From Oscillospiraceae bacterium (GTDB taxonomy: Bacteria > Bacillota > Clostridia > Oscillospirales > Ruminococcaceae): a stretch of DNA of 64,000 nucleotides. Within the stretch, counting starts at the first letter, position 1. Each line of letters starts with the position of its first letter. The position numbers and the translations under genes were made by a program. The stretch is from contig SVMX01000002.1 of the NCBI GenBank assembly GCA_015067175.1, positions 62,001-126,000 of the forward strand, given 5' to 3'. Under the pieces are notes generated by a model. That model did not search any database. It had not been told where the DNA came from and saw only the letters and a list, made by a program, of their open reading frames with translations. Positions 34,087 through 40,602 of the stretch are shown here, piece after piece.

Positions 34087-34893
34087 TTATTTTCCAATCA
34101 GTGCAATGCACTTCTGCGGACAGGCATTTGCACAGTCGCCGCAGCCGTTGCACTTTGCGCCGTCGATAGCCGCATGGTTGTTCTCTACCTTTATCGCGCC
34201 GATAGAGCACTTTTTCTCGCATATTTTACAGCCGATACAACCGTTTTTGCACACAGCCTTTGTAACCTTAGCGCTGTCGATATTGGAGCACTGCACCGCA
34301 TATTTCTGATCTGCGGGAATTATCACGATAAGCTTGTTCGGGCACGCCTTAACACACTTGCCGCAGCCCATGCACTTTGCAGGATCTACAACCGCAACGC
34401 CGTTTATCAGCGAAACCGCGCCAAAATCGCACGCCGCTACGCAATCGCCAAGTCCGTCACAGGCGCTTCGGCAGGTGCCCTTGCCGTTGTAAAAACGTTC
34501 GGAAGCAACGCAGGTCTGCGTTCCTGTGAAGATATATCTATCCTCAGTAGCACCGCTGCAGCCGTTGCAGCGAATGAATGCAACCTCGCGTACCATGTCA
34601 GCCGCCTCTGTGCCCATTATCGCTGCCATCTTCTTTGCCGCTTCAGAGCCGCCCGGTTTGCAGAGGTTTGCCTCAGCTTCGCCGCTTGCTACTGCAGCTG
34701 CATAGCCCTCACAGCCCGAATATCCGCATGCGCCGCAGTTTGCTCCCGGAAGAGCCTCGGTAAGCTTTGACACCGTTTCGTCGCTCTCGACGTGGAACAC
34801 CTTGGAGCATACCACGAGTATTCCTCCCGCAACAGCACCGATTACCGCAAAAATAAGTATCGGCAGAATGTAGGTCATAACAAATTCCATCAT
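34087..34893 (-). CDS. rnfB: Rnf complex iron-sulfur subunit RnfB
   Basis: Electron-input subunit of the Rnf ferredoxin:NAD+ oxidoreductase. 268 residues: N-terminal membrane anchor, a GANCGACGYSGC cluster motif, and several ferredoxin motifs (CMGCGKCVKACP, CIGCKICEKKC, CNGCGDCANACP), the multi-cluster form seen in Clostridia. The ATG at 34893 overlaps the rnfA stop (ATGA). Last gene of rnfCDGEAB. Confidence 0.96.
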   Translation of the reverse strand: MMEFVMTYILPILIFAVIGAVAGGILVVCSKVFHVESDETVSKLTEALPGANCGACGYSGCEGYAAAVASGEAEANLCKPGGSEAAKKMAAIMGTEAADMVREVAFIRCNGCSGATEDRYIFTGTQTCVASERFYNGKGTCRSACDGLGDCVAACDFGAVSLINGVAVVDPAKCMGCGKCVKACPNKLIVIIPADQKYAVQCSNIDSAKVTKAVCKNGCIGCKICEKKCSIGAIKVENNHAAIDGAKCNGCGDCANACPQKCIALIGK

Positions 34894-35495
34894 GCACCTC
34901 CCAACATTCCGTCAACGATACCGCCAAAGCCAAGGAAGCTTAGCGAAACTATCGCCGCCGCAACGAGCGTTATCGGCATACCCTGAAACGATTTCGGGAT
35001 ATCGCAGCGCTCCAGTCTGCCGCGAACTCCCGAGAATATCAGCATAGCCATCATAAAGCCGATACCGCCGCCTGCGGCATTGACCAAAGCCTCTAAGAAG
35101 CTGTAGTCGCTTTCGATATTAAGGAGAGTTACGCCAAGCACGGCACAGTTTGTCGTAATAAGTGGCAAATAAACGCCAAGCGTTTTATACAGCGCAGGAA
35201 TATACTTTTTCAGCACCATCTCCACGACTTGTACAAACAGCGCGATTATCAGAATGAAAAGTATGGTGTTCATGTATTCAAGTCCCATCGGGACGAGGAA
35301 CGCATGATACAGCGGATATGTAACAGCAGTAGCGCCTATCATTACCGCGATAACGGCACAGCCCATTCCAAGCGAGGAGGAAGCCTTTTTGGACACTCCC
35401 AGGAACGGACAGATACCCATAAATTTTGACAAAACGAAGTTATCCGTAAGTATACCTGTAAGCAGGATTATCATCATGCTTCTTGCGAGATCCAT
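34890..35495 (-). CDS. rnfA: Rnf complex membrane subunit RnfA
   Basis: A 201-residue membrane protein with six segments. The NFVLSKFMGICPFLGVS block (about 19-35) is the family signature with the Cys that takes part in the intramembrane iron-sulfur site shared with RnfE. The start touches the rnfE stop. Confidence 0.96.
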   Translation of the reverse strand: MDLARSMMIILLTGILTDNFVLSKFMGICPFLGVSKKASSSLGMGCAVIAVMIGATAVTYPLYHAFLVPMGLEYMNTILFILIIALFVQVVEMVLKKYIPALYKTLGVYLPLITTNCAVLGVTLLNIESDYSFLEALVNAAGGGIGFMMAMLIFSGVRGRLERCDIPKSFQGMPITLVAAAIVSLSFLGFGGIVDGMLGGA

Positions 35496-36175
35496 TACTT
35501 ACTCTCCTCCTTTCCGTCATTGGAGGAGCAGCCGCCTGCGCAGCCCTCTTTATTGGGACAAGCCGCACAGCCTGCCGCAGCCGGAGCAGTGCGCTTCGAT
35601 ATCTTGTTCACCAGTGCGATAACACAGCCTAACACAAAGAAGCCGCCCGCGGGATAAATGAAGATAGCCATAGGCTCCATAAACTCAGGACGAAGCTGAA
35701 GTCCGAACCATGTGCCGTTACCGAATATCTCTCTTACAGAGCTTACCGCAAGCATTGCAAGCGTGAAGCCTACGCCCATTCCAAGACCGTCAAGGACGGA
35801 GGCTGCAGCGTTGTTCTTGCTCGCAAACATCTCTGCACGTCCGAGAATGATACAGTTTACAGTGATAAGCGGCAGGAAAATACCCAGTGCGTCATATATA
35901 TCGGGCAGCGCTGCTTTTAAGATAAAGCCTGCGACGGTAACAAATCCCGCGATAATAACTATGTATGCAGGAAGTCTTACCTGCGACGGTATCACCTTTT
36001 TCAGCAGCGAAATAACAAGGTTTGAGCAGATCAGAACAAATGTCGCGGCAGCGCCCATTCCGATAGCATTTGAAGCCGATACTGTTATCGCAAGCGTCGG
36101 ACACATTCCAAGCAGCGATACGAGGGTAGGGTTTTCCTTGATAAGACCTTTTGTAAACTCGCTCATGTAGCTCAT
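35495..36175 (-). CDS. rnfE: Rnf complex membrane subunit RnfE
   Basis: A 226-residue paralogue of RnfA. N-terminal KENPTLVSLLGMCPTLAI (about 13-30) carries the conserved Cys. The C-terminus is extended by a Cys-rich tail (GCAACPNKEGCAGGC), which is seen in some Clostridia and may bind metal or a cluster. GGAGGTG is well spaced before the ATG at 36175, which overlaps the end of rnfG. Confidence 0.95.
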   Translation of the reverse strand: MSYMSEFTKGLIKENPTLVSLLGMCPTLAITVSASNAIGMGAAATFVLICSNLVISLLKKVIPSQVRLPAYIVIIAGFVTVAGFILKAALPDIYDALGIFLPLITVNCIILGRAEMFASKNNAAASVLDGLGMGVGFTLAMLAVSSVREIFGNGTWFGLQLRPEFMEPMAIFIYPAGGFFVLGCVIALVNKISKRTAPAAAGCAACPNKEGCAGGCSSNDGKEESK

Positions 36176-36783
36176 TCGGCTTCACCTCCCCCGTCAGTAT
36201 TAAAATTCACCTGCTGTACACAGAGATGATAAGCCTCCAGTGCGATATTCACAGCCTTTGCAACACCCTTTGAGGAATATGTCGCGCCTGTCACAGCCTG
36301 AATCTCGCCGTCATTCTTAGGCTCAGCGGTAACGATCGTAACTGGCTTATCATAACCCTTGAATTGCTCAAGGTAATCGGGAGCAGCGGTCTTAGTACCG
36401 AGATTTGGCGTTTCCTCACCTGTGGATACAACAGCCACGCCTGCAACAGCACCCTTATCTACGCCGACAAGCAGAGTATAGCCCTCCTTGTAGCCCTTGA
36501 CGGTGACCTCGAATGCAAGCACTCCGTCATTCTTTTTTATCACCTTTGTGACACGCGAAAGGTCTTCATAGTCAGAAGCCTCAAACGCAGGCTGCCACAC
36601 TTCGGCAGAAACTACGGAATAGTCCTCCTCGGTGCCGCCGTAAACAGATATCACCGCAGCCGCCTGTTTTTTAGTAAGTACGTTTGACGTATCAACATAA
36701 GTGATATTGTAAGTTATAATGACCAGTGCCGAAACTATCGCTGCGATAGCCGCAAGCACCAGTGCGGGTTTAAATCTGCTCAC
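36172..36783 (-). CDS. rnfG: Rnf complex FMN-binding subunit RnfG
   Basis: A 203-residue protein with an N-terminal membrane segment and an FMN-binding domain. The covalent flavinylation site VTGATYSSKG (Thr of the [S/T]GA[T] motif) is present near residues 164-173. It passes electrons between RnfD and the rest of the complex on the outer face. A flavin transferase (ApbE) would be needed and is not in the window. Confidence 0.94.
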   Translation of the reverse strand: MSRFKPALVLAAIAAIVSALVIITYNITYVDTSNVLTKKQAAAVISVYGGTEEDYSVVSAEVWQPAFEASDYEDLSRVTKVIKKNDGVLAFEVTVKGYKEGYTLLVGVDKGAVAGVAVVSTGEETPNLGTKTAAPDYLEQFKGYDKPVTIVTAEPKNDGEIQAVTGATYSSKGVAKAVNIALEAYHLCVQQVNFNTDGGGEAE

Positions 36784-37730
36784 TTCTTTGCCTCCCTCTT
36801 TGCCCCGAATGCTCTCGGAACAGTAATTTTATCTATGTAGGGAGTAAGAATATTCATCAGAAGTATCGCATACGACACACCCTCGGGCAGTGACGCAAAC
36901 TCTCTTATTGCGAATGTAAGCACTCCGCAGCCAATGCCGAAAACAAGCTTTCCCATGCTCGTCAGCGGAGTTGTGGAATAATCCGTTGCCATGAAGATAG
37001 CGCCAAGCATAAGACCGCCAGACATTACACTGTACAGCATAGCGGTAGGATCGCCGCCGTTTGCTACAAGCGACAGCACCGCAACCGTACCAATAAATGC
37101 ACATGGAGTTACAGGAGAAATTATCTTTCTCACAACAAGATATACACCGCCGATAAGAAGCGCAATCACACAGGTCTCACCCGTACAGCCAAGTCTTACG
37201 CCGAAAAGCATATCAACAAGCTGTGGCATCTGCTCAGGCGGCGCTGTGAGCGGCGTTGCCGATGTAACAGCGTCAGCGGCCGCGCCCTGATAAGCAAACG
37301 GCGCAGTCCATGTCGTCATCGCTGAGGAAAACGACAGCATAAGCACTATTCTAGCCGTAACAGCGGGATTTGCAAAGTTCTGTCCTATGCCGCCGAACAG
37401 CATTTTAACTATCACGATGGCAACAAAACAGCCGATAACAGCCATATATATCGGGATATCAACAGGAAGATTGAACGCAAGCAGCATTCCTGTTACGATA
37501 GCCGAACGATCTGAGGTTGTGCGGCTTTTTTTAGTTATGATACAAAACAGCCACTCAAACAGCACACAGCACGCACAGCATATCAAAGTAAGCAGAAGCG
37601 CGCGAACGCCGAACAGCACTACCGCCGCGATAAGCGCAGGACACAGCGCGATTATAACATCAAGCATAATGCTGCGTGTGGTAACGCTGCTTCGGATATG
37701 AGGTGACGGCTCAACGATCATTTTTTGCAT
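36780..37730 (-). CDS. rnfD: Rnf complex membrane subunit RnfD
   Basis: A 316-residue protein with about eight to ten membrane segments and the covalent FMN region FMATDYSTTPLTS. The correct start is the ATG at 37730 (GAGAGGTGG upstream, N-terminus PSPHIRSS typical of RnfD); the longer open frame from 37967 is antisense-free run-up inside rnfC. The start lies 20 bp inside the end of rnfC. Confidence 0.93.
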   Translation of the reverse strand: MQKMIVEPSPHIRSSVTTRSIMLDVIIALCPALIAAVVLFGVRALLLTLICCACCVLFEWLFCIITKKSRTTSDRSAIVTGMLLAFNLPVDIPIYMAVIGCFVAIVIVKMLFGGIGQNFANPAVTARIVLMLSFSSAMTTWTAPFAYQGAAADAVTSATPLTAPPEQMPQLVDMLFGVRLGCTGETCVIALLIGGVYLVVRKIISPVTPCAFIGTVAVLSLVANGGDPTAMLYSVMSGGLMLGAIFMATDYSTTPLTSMGKLVFGIGCGVLTFAIREFASLPEGVSYAILLMNILTPYIDKITVPRAFGAKREAKK

Positions 37731-39183
37731 TGGTGCCACCTCTCTTTCCCTTTTTTGCCGATTTCTTTGCTGCGGGCTTTGCGCCGGCCTTATCAGCCTT
37801 TGCCGTAGGCTTTGTGTCAGCTTTTTCAGACTTATCGTCAGTCTTTTCAGACTTTGCCGCAGGCTTAGCTGCCGCCTTTGCCTCCTCGTTGCGCAGAAAA
37901 TCCTTAGCAAGCTGATTTTTCTCGGCAAGCGAGCGCTTCGCAGGGCATACATAGCTGCAAGAACCACAATTCATGCACAAACCAATCTTGTATTTTTTCA
38001 GCGCAGCAGCATCTCTGGCGTCATAAGCGTGCTCAAGCTCTGTCGGCATAAGATTCATCGGACACGCGCGCACGCATCTTCCGCAGCGTATACACGGCGA
38101 CTCCTTATATATCGGCGTATCGCTGAAAAGCAGCACCGCATTGTTTGTCTTTGACAGCGGAGTATCGGGGTCGAACGCGCACGCACCCATCATAGGTCCG
38201 CCCAGTATTATCTTATCGGGGTCTTTATAAAGGCTCGCACCCGCAACAACGTCATGCAGCAGCGTTCCGACAGATACCATGAAATTAGTAGGAGCGTTGA
38301 CAATGTTTCCATCAACGGTTATCCTGCGCTTTATCAGCGGCATTCCCGTTCTGATATAGCTGTGGATAAAGCCCGCTGTGGACACGTTTATCACAACACA
38401 GCCAACGTCGGACGGCAGACCACCCTCTTTTACAGTTCTGCCTGTGAGAGTATGCACCAGCACCTTTTCAGCGCCCTGAGGATACGCCATTGGAAGCTTT
38501 ACTACTTTTATCGCGGGAATTGGCGCAGTAAGCTTTTGAAGCTTTTCAATAGCCTCAGGCTTATCCTCCTCAATACCGATAATTGCACGCGGTATCTCAA
38601 GATTTTTCATGATAAGCTTTATTCCGCGCAGTACAGCGTCGGCATTTTCGATAAGCTCACGAAAATCCGAGGTTATGTACGGCTCGCACTCAGCGCCGTT
38701 TACGATAAGCGTGTCTATATTCACTTTCTGCGGGTCATAAGCGAGCTTCACATGAGTAGGGAAGCCTGCGCCGCCAAGCCCTACAGCGCCGCTTTCGCGC
38801 ACCGCTTTGATAAAGTCCTCGCGCGAATTTACCACAGGAGGCTTTATCTCAGACGAAAGCTGCATACGGTTGTCGCTTTCTATCACAACGGTCTTGCACA
38901 TTCTGCCGTTGAGCGCAACGACTTCCTTTATCTCTTTAACAAATCCGCTGATACTTGAATGAACAGGCGCAGACATAAACGCCTCGCTGTCACCTATCTT
39001 CTCACCGACCTTGACATAATCCCCCGCTTGCACCAAAGGCTCGCACGGCGCGCCGATATGCTGCGACATACTTATCACAGCAACAGACGGCGGCTTCAGC
39101 TTGCGCGTGCCCTGCTCCGCGGAAGCATCATAATGCGGCAGCCGTATGGAATGAAGCCCAAACAATTTAAACAATCTATTCAC
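37711..39183 (-). CDS. rnfC: Rnf complex NADH-binding subunit RnfC
   Basis: A 490-residue peripheral subunit that carries the NADH and FMN sites and two 4Fe-4S clusters (CIRCGRCVRACP and CMNCGSCSYVCP). The glycine-rich GAVGLGGAGFPTHVK block is the flavin/NADH site. The last 60 residues form an unusual Lys/Ala-rich, low-complexity tail. First gene of rnfCDGEAB; AGGTG precedes the ATG. Confidence 0.95.
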   Translation of the reverse strand: MNRLFKLFGLHSIRLPHYDASAEQGTRKLKPPSVAVISMSQHIGAPCEPLVQAGDYVKVGEKIGDSEAFMSAPVHSSISGFVKEIKEVVALNGRMCKTVVIESDNRMQLSSEIKPPVVNSREDFIKAVRESGAVGLGGAGFPTHVKLAYDPQKVNIDTLIVNGAECEPYITSDFRELIENADAVLRGIKLIMKNLEIPRAIIGIEEDKPEAIEKLQKLTAPIPAIKVVKLPMAYPQGAEKVLVHTLTGRTVKEGGLPSDVGCVVINVSTAGFIHSYIRTGMPLIKRRITVDGNIVNAPTNFMVSVGTLLHDVVAGASLYKDPDKIILGGPMMGACAFDPDTPLSKTNNAVLLFSDTPIYKESPCIRCGRCVRACPMNLMPTELEHAYDARDAAALKKYKIGLCMNCGSCSYVCPAKRSLAEKNQLAKDFLRNEEAKAAAKPAAKSEKTDDKSEKADTKPTAKADKAGAKPAAKKSAKKGKRGGTNAKNDR

Positions 39184-39395: not shown

Positions 39396-40223
39396 ATGAA
39401 TAACCTAAAAACAATCCTGCAAGGTTTTATTGTCGGCTCAACTATGAGCATACCCGGAATAAGCGGCGGAACGGTCGCTATAATACTCGGAATATACAAC
39501 AAACTGCTAGACAGCGCAGGCAATATATTCAAAGACTTTAAAAAATCGGCTGTATTTCTGCTTTGCTTTGCCCTTGGCGGCGGAATAGGTATACTTACAG
39601 CCGCCCGTGTTCTTACTTTTCTGTTCACAACGCCCGCCGAGCTGCCGCTGAAATTCGCTTTTCTCGGAGCCGCAGCAGGCTGTATTCCACCAATAATGAA
39701 ACGCTCGCAAATGCTTCCGCTGACGCCGAAAAAGCTTCTCCTGCTGACAATGGGACTTGCAGTCGCCGCGCTGTTTGCAAGGATACCGCAAGGTGCTTTT
39801 TCCGAGCAAGGCGGTTTTGTATCTGAAATAATCGCAGGGATTATCCTTTCGGTCGCACTGGTGCTTCCGGGAATCTCAGCGTCACAAATGCTGCTTATGC
39901 TTGGAATGTACGACAGGGCTATGCTCAGCATAGCAAACGGAGATTTTATTTCGCTTGTTCCGCTGTGCATAGGACTTGCCGTGGGAATATTCCTCACCGC
40001 AAAGGCGTTGAGTGCACTGCTCAAGCGCTTCGACGGAATTTATATAATTATACTTGGTTTTGTGCTTTTTTCGCTCACGGAGCTTGTTCCGCAATGGAAC
40101 AACATAGGAGAGCTTGCAATAGGCGCTGTATGCTTTTGCGCAGGTTTTATAGCCGCGACCTTGCTCAATAAAAAGGAAAATGCACAAACCAAACCTCATG
40201 ATATTGTGCATAATATCAATTGA
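39396..40223 (+). CDS. popT: DUF368 membrane protein, probable undecaprenyl-phosphate translocase
   Basis: A 275-residue integral membrane protein with two related halves. Signatures are GSTMSIPGISGGTVAIILG near the N-terminus and its counterpart LVLPGISASQMLLMLGMYD in the second half. DUF368 proteins (PopT) have been reported to return undecaprenyl phosphate across the membrane for reuse in cell-wall synthesis; the assignment here is by family only. GGGAGG stands before the ATG. The 3' end overlaps the promoter region of the next gene. Confidence 0.85.
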   Translation: MNNLKTILQGFIVGSTMSIPGISGGTVAIILGIYNKLLDSAGNIFKDFKKSAVFLLCFALGGGIGILTAARVLTFLFTTPAELPLKFAFLGAAAGCIPPIMKRSQMLPLTPKKLLLLTMGLAVAALFARIPQGAFSEQGGFVSEIIAGIILSVALVLPGISASQMLLMLGMYDRAMLSIANGDFISLVPLCIGLAVGIFLTAKALSALLKRFDGIYIIILGFVLFSLTELVPQWNNIGELAIGAVCFCAGFIAATLLNKKENAQTKPHDIVHNIN

Positions 40224-40248
40224 CATATACAATATATTGATGTATAAT
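40220..40248 (+). promoter_or_regulatory. Consensus promoter with an NrdR-like box in its spacer
   Basis: TTGACA (40220-40225), 17-bp spacer, TATAAT (40243-40248). The spacer contains CAATATATTG (40230-40239), a perfect palindrome that fits the core CWATATATWG of the NrdR box. A degenerate second copy, CATGATATTG, lies at 40197-40206. Confidence 0.7.
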
Positions 40249-40287
40249 TGAATTATCCACAACAGCTATGCATGAGGTAAAAAAACT

Positions 40288-40557
40288 ATGATAGAGATAA
40301 ACGTAACAAACGGAACACTGCCGCAGCGCGAGATAGACGCCTATGTTGAGGCTGCGCTGAAAAAATTCCCGAACAAGACTATAACCGCAATAGATTTTGA
40401 AGTTGACGGCGAATATGTCAACTGCGCATATCACTTTGCGACCGAGCCATTCCAGCGTATCCGCAGAATAACAGGCTACCTTGTGGGTACTCTCGACCGT
40501 TTCAATAACGCCAAGCGCTTTGAAGAGGCTGACCGCGTAAAGCATACAGCCAACTAA
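40288..40557 (+). CDS. Stand-alone protein resembling the glycyl-radical C-terminus of anaerobic ribonucleotide reductase
   Basis: An 89-residue protein. Residues 59-86 (RRITGYLVGT...RFNNAKRFEE..DRVKH) follow the spacing of the C-terminal radical loop of class III ribonucleotide reductase NrdD, as I remember it from E. coli (RRVCGYLG, then FNAGK.EE...RVKH); Gly63 would be the radical position. The NrdD catalytic barrel and the zinc Cys pairs are absent, and residues 1-55 match nothing I recognise. It could be a radical spare part, as GrcA is for pyruvate formate-lyase, or a domain reused for another purpose. A consensus promoter with an NrdR-like box controls it. The ribosome site is weak (GAGGT, 40273-40277). 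Confidence 0.7.
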   Translation: MIEINVTNGTLPQREIDAYVEAALKKFPNKTITAIDFEVDGEYVNCAYHFATEPFQRIRRITGYLVGTLDRFNNAKRFEEADRVKHTAN

Positions 40558-40574
40558 AACGAGTTTAAACATAA

Positions 40575-40602
40575 AAAAGCGAGGACACATATCCTCGCTT
40601 TT
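40575..40602. terminator. Bidirectional terminator between the radical-loop protein gene and the ABC transporter
   Basis: Perfect stem AAAAGCGAGGA (40575-40585) / TCCTCGCTTTT (40592-40602) with a 6-nt loop, T-rich on both strands. Confidence 0.9.

Follow-up and report, generated by a model that had tools for sequence, protein, structure and literature searches.

This locus raises the question of what use a cell can make of an 89-residue protein that ends in the glycyl-radical loop of the class III ribonucleotide reductase NrdD. The gene, with an ATG start, lies on the plus strand at 40288..40557 (stop codon included) of the window, by which we mean the whole 64 kb stretch of DNA analysed, and is supported by its reading frame, a Pfam match and homologues in the genus. 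Its product comprises an N-terminal β-α-β-β domain (residues 1-52; 40288..40443, plus strand), delineated with an AlphaFold2 model and a profile comparison with NrdD tails, and a copy of the radical loop of the NrdD C-terminus (residues 54-86; 40447..40545, plus strand), recognized by Pfam, alignment and profile comparison. A Pfam search, which the sequence-only reading of this DNA had proposed as a check, returned PF13597 (NRDD) with an E-value of 3e-7, above the curated cut-off; the match covers profile positions 518-562 of 562, i.e. the loop only, and no other family, the PFL-type Gly_radical domain PF01228 included, was returned at E <= 10. NCBIfam NrdD models likewise match residues 54-86. 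In profile searches the NrdD of P. copri (8p23) matches the stand-alone loop with an E-value of 4.7e-13, that of T4 (1h78) being a weak match by sequence (E 0.1), and hhalign relates the stand-alone family to NrdD tails at 99.9%, over the loop. The stretch RIRRITGYLVGTLDRFNNAKR of the protein recurs identically in the tail of a full-length NrdD encoded by the same genome. Gly63 (codon 40474..40476, plus strand) aligns with the glycine of RITGYL in chain 8p23 and is, on this alignment and its conservation, the predicted radical glycine; the radical residue of the P. copri enzyme is given as Gly711 in the accessible text of PMC11226230. With only 89 residues and a profile match restricted to positions 518-562, the protein has no catalytic barrel, and its single cysteine leaves it without the zinc-binding cysteines before the loop (CxxC occurs in 7 of the 115 rows of the family alignment). 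By these comparisons its C-terminus is a near-perfect copy of the class III NrdD glycyl-radical loop, much as the sequence-only reading had described it, down to the radical position of Gly63 and the missing barrel and zinc cysteines.

Near-full-length homologues are present in 35 of 37 genomes of the same genus, including that from which the window comes (hereafter the source genome), and others were recovered from contigs named Ruminococcus, Oscillospiraceae, Erysipelotrichaceae, other Clostridia, Enterorhabdus and Raoultibacter, as well as from viral contigs. We used the best 80 of 571 confirmed stretches from a scan of genome contigs and the best 80 of 265 from a scan of viral contigs, and the family alignment holds 115 representatives of less than 80% identity. 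The radical glycine is present in all 115 rows and RITGYLVGT, K76, E79, R83 and H86 are invariant, an invariance partly favoured by the use of ITGYLVGT as one of the scan patterns with which the loci were found. For 30 sequences of the genus, whose synonymous sites are close to saturated, we obtained a pN/pS of about 0.12 for the loop and 0.28 for the N-terminal domain. A search of plasmids gave 18 records, mostly annotated NrdDs, none of which covers 80% of the query, and a search of phage records gave seven, two of them covering at least 80%. On four viral-labelled contigs (L172, L173, L180, L181) the loop ends frames of 144-163 aa that have no β-α-β-β domain.

Clustering of the neighbours at 79 contig loci revealed no gene adjoining most copies; minus-strand reading frames make up the two largest clusters, of 22 and 12 loci, and in that of 22 loci the frame lies across the stand-alone gene itself. 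At a distance of 29-86 bp, the stand-alone gene is succeeded by a rubrerythrin gene in the same orientation at 9 of the 79 contig loci (L055, L057, L066, L069, L079, L081, L085, L087, L093) and 66-185 bp behind it at 3 of 30 genus loci (L021, L029, L032), its identity having been established by Pfam in two examples; no rubrerythrin gene stands behind the stand-alone gene in the window itself. This adjacency suggests joint expression with oxygen or peroxide defence. In the window the gene immediately upstream (39396-40223) encodes a PF04018 undecaprenyl-phosphate-translocase-like protein, and before it, on the minus strand at 34087-39183, is a run of genes resembling an Rnf electron-transport operon, with an RnfC-like ORF at 37711-39183.

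The upstream region also points to ribonucleotide reduction. A consensus sigma-70 promoter, a perfect TTGACA-17-TATAAT (40220..40248, plus strand), carries in its spacer the proximal NrdR-type box CAATATATTG (40230..40239, no strand assigned), an exact CWATATATWG, and 33 bp upstream a distal box, CATGATATTG, with two mismatches (40197..40206, no strand assigned) overlaps the last codons of the upstream gene; a terminator-like hairpin follows the stand-alone gene (40575..40602, plus strand). The promoter, its box and the degenerate copy had all been noticed in the sequence-only reading, which took loop and box as two signals for ribonucleotide reduction. CAATATATTG is the sole exact CWATATATWG in the window, and one such box per 64 kb is within chance (shuffle mean 0.24; 21 of 100 shuffles had one). 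It is by its conservation among genus orthologues that the box pair rises beyond chance: shuffling leads one to expect 0.10 pairs with at most three mismatches in all and a spacing of 31-33 bp, whereas such pairs precede 23 of 30 genus orthologues, the remaining seven having pairs with 4-5 mismatches, and a box with at most one mismatch is found at all 30 orthologues examined. Pairs of the same definition precede 20 of 75 other copies (again 0.10 expected from shuffles) and none of 63 viral copies; control regions upstream of other genes have a pair in 0 of 44 cases (genus loci) and 2 of 412. The genus and contig counts overlap slightly, some loci being the same records (e.g. L038 and L016). 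In promoters of the NrdR regulon a pair of NrdR boxes is spaced by some three helical turns. The main nrdD of the genus has two boxes of at most two mismatches each, 31-32 bp apart, at all 16 genes examined (a count without shuffle control), so that the box expected by the sequence-only reading at other nrd genes does occur there, and the source genome encodes nrdR (G000:C13:104739-105173, E 4.4e-53). The conserved double box, its counterpart at nrdD and the presence of nrdR make it very likely that the stand-alone gene belongs to the NrdR regulon, and NrdR probably controls its transcription jointly with that of nrdD. Profile match, conserved loop, shared double box and nrdR thus all bear out the link to ribonucleotide reduction.

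What the protein does for the reductase depends on the state of NrdD. The assembly of the source genome (2.14 Mb in 14 contigs, 84% complete) encodes two full-length NrdDs besides the stand-alone protein. The main one is intact, is directly followed by an NrdG-like gene and ends in CPCCHRREDEVSFERIRRITGYLVGTLDRFNNAKRAEESQRVKH, so that its own loop is almost identical to the stand-alone loop. The other (L002; G000:C1:151246-153021) is of a second, shorter NrdD type with the tail GYLSYSRVKG, found also in many members of the genus; its approximate start is closely preceded by an exact CWATATATWG. As the main NrdD is intact in this genome, it does not need the stand-alone protein for its completion, and the latter probably serves as a spare or represents an evolutionary intermediate.

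The relatives present a different picture. Profile coordinates were compared over 61 of them, and among the 37 genus genomes the main NrdD is loop-less in 24, intact at its C-terminus in 8 (one being cut at the start) and not found in 5; G017 and G032, where it was not found, are 92 and 99% complete. The loop-less chains of the genus end at profile positions 532-538 of 562. Nine of these tails were inspected and have a clean stop behind the presumed zinc ribbon, e.g. CPKCHRREGEVMVERIERPKRF, the other 15 being called from profile coordinates. The GCRT motif and the three conserved cysteines of the presumed ribbon are retained in 40 of 40 loop-less and 25 of 25 intact NrdDs of the tree set described below; we take the GCRT cysteine to be the radical active-site cysteine. 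With no loop on the main NrdD of these 24 genomes, the stand-alone protein looks there like the subunit of a split enzyme rather than a spare, and NrdD probably depends on it. Seven genus genomes besides the source genome combine an intact NrdD with the stand-alone protein, and part of the genus has the second NrdD type, with an intact C-terminus, alongside the loop-less NrdD.

Most telling are eight genus genomes, 77-99% complete (G002, G006, G007, G010, G013, G023, G031, G034), with exactly two NRDD matches at E <= 0.001, namely a loop-less NrdD and the stand-alone protein. In the 37 genus genomes we found no class I/II large subunit (PF02867, E <= 1e-5; control matches in 11 of 14 well-known genomes) and no RTPR (TIGR02505, E <= 0.001; control matches in 8 of 14, over the cut-off in one). 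Unless the assemblies miss something, the stand-alone protein would be the sole reductase radical site of these eight genomes; the assemblies are incomplete, and three of the eight (G006, G023, G031) yielded no nrdR, so gaps in these decisive genomes are real. No stand-alone gene was detected in G005 and G011, two of the 24 genomes with a loop-less NrdD. G005 also lacks 1.7 kb of flanking sequence that its relative G007 has, so that an assembly gap is likely there, and the assemblies are for the most part fragmented. A dispersed, partly self-complementary repeat of about 110 bp occurs near the stand-alone locus and in many other places in G005, G007 and G010 (L246-L253).

The association holds beyond the genus. 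A sample of 107 genomes of the order was searched with the family alignment and PF13597, leaving out contig-edge NrdD pieces, among them a 95-aa piece in G414 excluded from the stand-alone count, and a further two NrdD-like genes whose match stops at profile position 502. An NrdD ending at positions 530-539 is found in 23 of these genomes, and a separate loop ORF accompanies it in all 23, as against 9 of the 84 others. One of the 23 (G411) has an intact NrdD in addition to the loop-less one, and three (G048, G356, G389) have the second NrdD type; nine genomes of the sample, the source genome included, have a stand-alone loop gene together with an intact NrdD. In several families the loop ORF is very short, mostly 44-78 aa, has no N-terminal domain and lies directly behind nrdD. 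Four genomes have two or three separate loop ORFs each (L236 in G393, L230 in G351, L231 in G363, and G298), and the two of G393, of 44 and 48 aa behind a loop-less nrdD, are the smallest radical-loop ORFs seen. A class-level sample, kept out of the counts, includes G271, whose NrdD is loop-less; among the matches listed no loop gene lies close to it, and the genome has a second NRDD match. Outside the order, the gene type of the window was detected at E <= 1e-24 in 12 genomes, 11 of which have a loop-less NrdD (tails inspected in nine; G600 and G623 assigned from profile coordinates); G553 has in addition an intact NrdD of another type, and G800 has an intact NrdD only. In G644, G577, G704 and G739 the stand-alone gene is directly downstream of nrdD. 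Among 175 family loci, ten have an NrdD within the fetched flank, and all ten NrdDs are loop-less; these loci come from one bacterial and nine viral contigs, the latter including two near-duplicate pairs. The two genes overlap or are 5 bp apart in six of the ten and 225-1335 bp apart in the others, an NrdG-like gene is found in seven, and the gene order loop-less nrdD, stand-alone gene, nrdG occurs on one bacterial and several viral contigs.

A tree of NrdD cores indicates how this distribution may have arisen. It contains 65 of 74 loci (40 loop-less, 25 intact), nine having given no NrdD frame by motif search, and implies at least six changes of tail state on well-supported branches, or eight by parsimony. 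Among its 16 genus rows, nine loop-less NrdDs form a nested clade (100/96), and the deeper branches are seven intact NrdDs (G000, G027, G012, G022, G015, G004, G036), all from genomes that carry the stand-alone gene. The simplest order of events is therefore that the stand-alone gene came first and the NrdD loop was lost later, which would make the source genome a representative of the redundant stage before loop loss. What looks like a recent loss is seen in G485 (L265), where nrdD ends with FERIHRITE at the position of the radical glycine and the stand-alone gene is elsewhere in the genome; in its relative G800 NrdD is intact. This tail resembles a product of oxygen cleavage fixed in the genome.

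In the N-terminal part of the protein no NrdD homology is detected (residues 1-52), and the alignment with NrdD tails starts at residue 53. The idea that this domain derives from the part of NrdD that precedes the zinc ribbon was considered and dropped because the profile comparison aligned the loop only. The AlphaFold2 model, built from the 115-row alignment (mean pLDDT 78, pTM 0.48), predicts a β-α-β-β unit for the first 52 residues, with block pLDDT of 85-90 up to residue 50; the loop is modelled with low confidence (64-72) and hence not resolved. Foldseek comparison of the model with the PDB gave no match at E <= 0.001, the best (0.073) being ribosome-hibernation-factor-like, and comparison with viral models gave none at the same threshold. 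The sequence-only reading had proposed structure prediction as a check on its NrdD assignment and would have taken an unrelated fold as a refutation. Neither in fold nor in sequence does the N-terminal domain resemble NrdD, but the radical part lies outside it, and the fold comparison speaks neither for nor against the link. The BFVD entry A0A8S5V4E4 (Siphoviridae sp. ct87j35), which matches weakly in fold with an E-value of 0.67 and 57% identity across 35 columns, is a viral protein of 47 aa that bears the name anaerobic ribonucleoside triphosphate reductase and is probably another minimal stand-alone loop.

Taken together, these observations lead us to regard the 89-residue protein, with considerable confidence, as a free-standing glycyl-radical subunit for the class III reductase NrdD. 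Its basis is the identity of the loop, its conservation, the loop-less NrdDs, the co-occurrence of the two genes, their linkage with nrdD and nrdG in some genomes and the shared box; radical formation, docking, catalysis and repair are what we infer from it. The NrdG activase would install the radical on Gly63 of the free small protein, whose C-terminal loop would then dock into the NrdD barrel in the place of NrdD's own loop. From there the radical would pass to the active-site cysteine of the GCRT finger loop and the ribonucleotide be reduced, with the β-α-β-β domain holding or steering the loop in lieu of the covalent link. The accessible passages of two studies describe the glycyl radical domain as flipping out of the NrdD core for NrdG (PMC12662201), and as mobile, with the radical glycine docking beside the active-site cysteine (PMC11226230); detachment would come naturally to a domain that has to move out of the barrel and back in. 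In the source genome the second, exchangeable copy of the loop could replace an NrdD tail cleaved by oxygen. Cleavage of the class III backbone by O2 is described in the consulted part of PMC2795772, and a separate, cheap radical piece would therefore also permit repair in the manner of YfiD. It appears likely, if a little less so than the assignment of the protein itself, that a two-subunit class III reductase, made of a loop-less NrdD and an exchangeable glycyl-radical subunit, operates in many gut Clostridia and their phages, and that the genus records a spare domain becoming obligatory once the NrdD loop was lost, a loss that recurred across lineages.

The alternative closest to this is that of a pure spare part, which would only replace the cleaved tail of an oxygen-damaged NrdD and be dispensable without oxygen. 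It is compatible with our preferred explanation in the source genome, and the sequence-only reading had leaned this way in likening the protein to GrcA (YfiD) as a replaceable domain. That comparison fares well where NrdD is intact, as it is in the source genome, in the seven other genus genomes and in the nine genomes of the order sample (the source genome among them); the rubrerythrin neighbour, present at 12 of 109 loci (9 of 79 among the contigs, 3 of 30 in the genus), hints at a role in defence against oxygen or peroxide, and the accessible text of PMC8683613, which provides the YfiD precedent, deems spares for other glycyl radical enzymes possible. It seems not to extend to the 24 of 37 genus genomes in which the protein looks like a subunit: the main NrdD of these, and an NrdD in 23 of the 107 genomes of the order, has no loop to damage, and on one bacterial and several viral contigs the gene sits between a loop-less nrdD and nrdG. 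As a full account of the family we consider the pure spare part possible yet rather doubtful.

That the protein is instead a decoy or regulator, a loop mimic which binds NrdG or the NrdD cleft and inhibits ribonucleotide reduction, strikes us as quite improbable. A free loop could indeed compete with the loop of an intact NrdD, NrdR-type control would suit any function touching the dNTP pool, and the gene is also found on viral contigs; such a role, however, explains neither the co-occurrence in 23 of 23 genomes nor why loop-less NrdDs have retained their catalytic residues in genomes for which the searches turned up no other reductase. Less probable still is an artefact of gene splitting, in which a loop-less nrdD and a loop ORF are joined by an intron, an intein or a frameshift. 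Phage nrdD genes are often interrupted by introns or inteins according to the accessible parts of PMC3653736 and PMC12363816, but in six of the ten linked loci an intron would not fit between the gene ends, which overlap or are separated by 5 bp, the listed genus genomes have the two genes far apart or on different contigs (in G010 an NrdG-like gene, CPHNCEGCQNP, follows nrdD and the stand-alone gene is on another contig), and the small gene comes with a start, an N-terminal domain and a box pair of its own. A decaying, functionless paralogue of the NrdD tail, for which the intact NrdD of the source genome might speak, is contradicted by the loop's conservation in 115 of 115 rows, its pN/pS of 0.12 and the conserved double box, and has a negligible chance of being correct.

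If the interpretation as a free-standing radical subunit is right, the family provides a second type of transferable glycyl radical, this time serving the synthesis of DNA precursors, and its class III reductase would be the first split one found in cells, as far as the accessible portions of the open-access literature extend. In that literature and a few subscription journals, within the portions accessible, we found no description of a stand-alone NrdD radical protein or of a split class III reductase in a bacterium. The consulted passages describe the class III reductase as a catalytic chain bearing its own glycine radical (PMC4390871), name YfiD and Y06I, both for pyruvate formate-lyase, as the only validated spare parts (PMC8683613), call the split class II NrdJ the sole split reductase in a non-viral organism (PMC4520616) and put split phage nrdD genes down to introns, inteins or unexplained breaks (PMC3653736). 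In Jug phages nrdD is reported in four fragments, with no evidence of splicing between pieces of 230 and 91 aa (accessible part of PMC12363816); the 91-aa piece, which we know by this description, might be the same kind of protein. A loop-less NrdD with its small partner would be natural material for testing the delivery of a glycyl radical in trans, and for asking how NrdG recognizes its target and whether anaerobes meet oxygen by swapping the radical part alone. For annotation, small proteins matching NRDD need not be fragments, nor loop-less NrdDs pseudogenes.

Among known systems, the C-terminal domain of NrdD itself (PF13597; 8p23, 1h78) shares the loop, RITGYLVGT...DRFN.AKRAE..DRVKH, with glycine in the radical position; unlike NrdD, the stand-alone protein is a separate chain without barrel, ATP cone or zinc ribbon and has the short β-α-β-β domain. 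Like GrcA/YfiD and T4 Y06I, it is small, forms a chain of its own and repeats the radical domain found at the C-terminus of a glycyl radical enzyme (PMC8683613, accessible part). Unlike GrcA/YfiD, it copies the tail of NrdD and not that of PFL, PF13597 alone having been returned, and its parent enzyme is tail-less in many relatives, as befits a subunit rather than a spare. NrdJa-NrdJb of Pseudomonas aeruginosa is similar in that a one-chain reductase is divided between a large polypeptide with the catalytic part and a small one with the C-terminus, both of which are needed there (PMC4520616, accessible part). It differs in being a class II, adenosylcobalamin-dependent enzyme encoded by one operon, whose small part serves thiol-disulfide exchange and carries no radical; in the present case a catalytic chain without an essential part appears, by sequence, in the relatives, the NrdD of the source genome being intact. 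The class I proteins NrdB/NrdF employ tyrosyl/dimetal chemistry and are not homologous. The likeness to them, a storage radical kept on a separate subunit (PMC4390871, accessible part), is functional only. Set against these systems, the radical chemistry and the spare-part principle are known, and what is new is the division of the enzyme.
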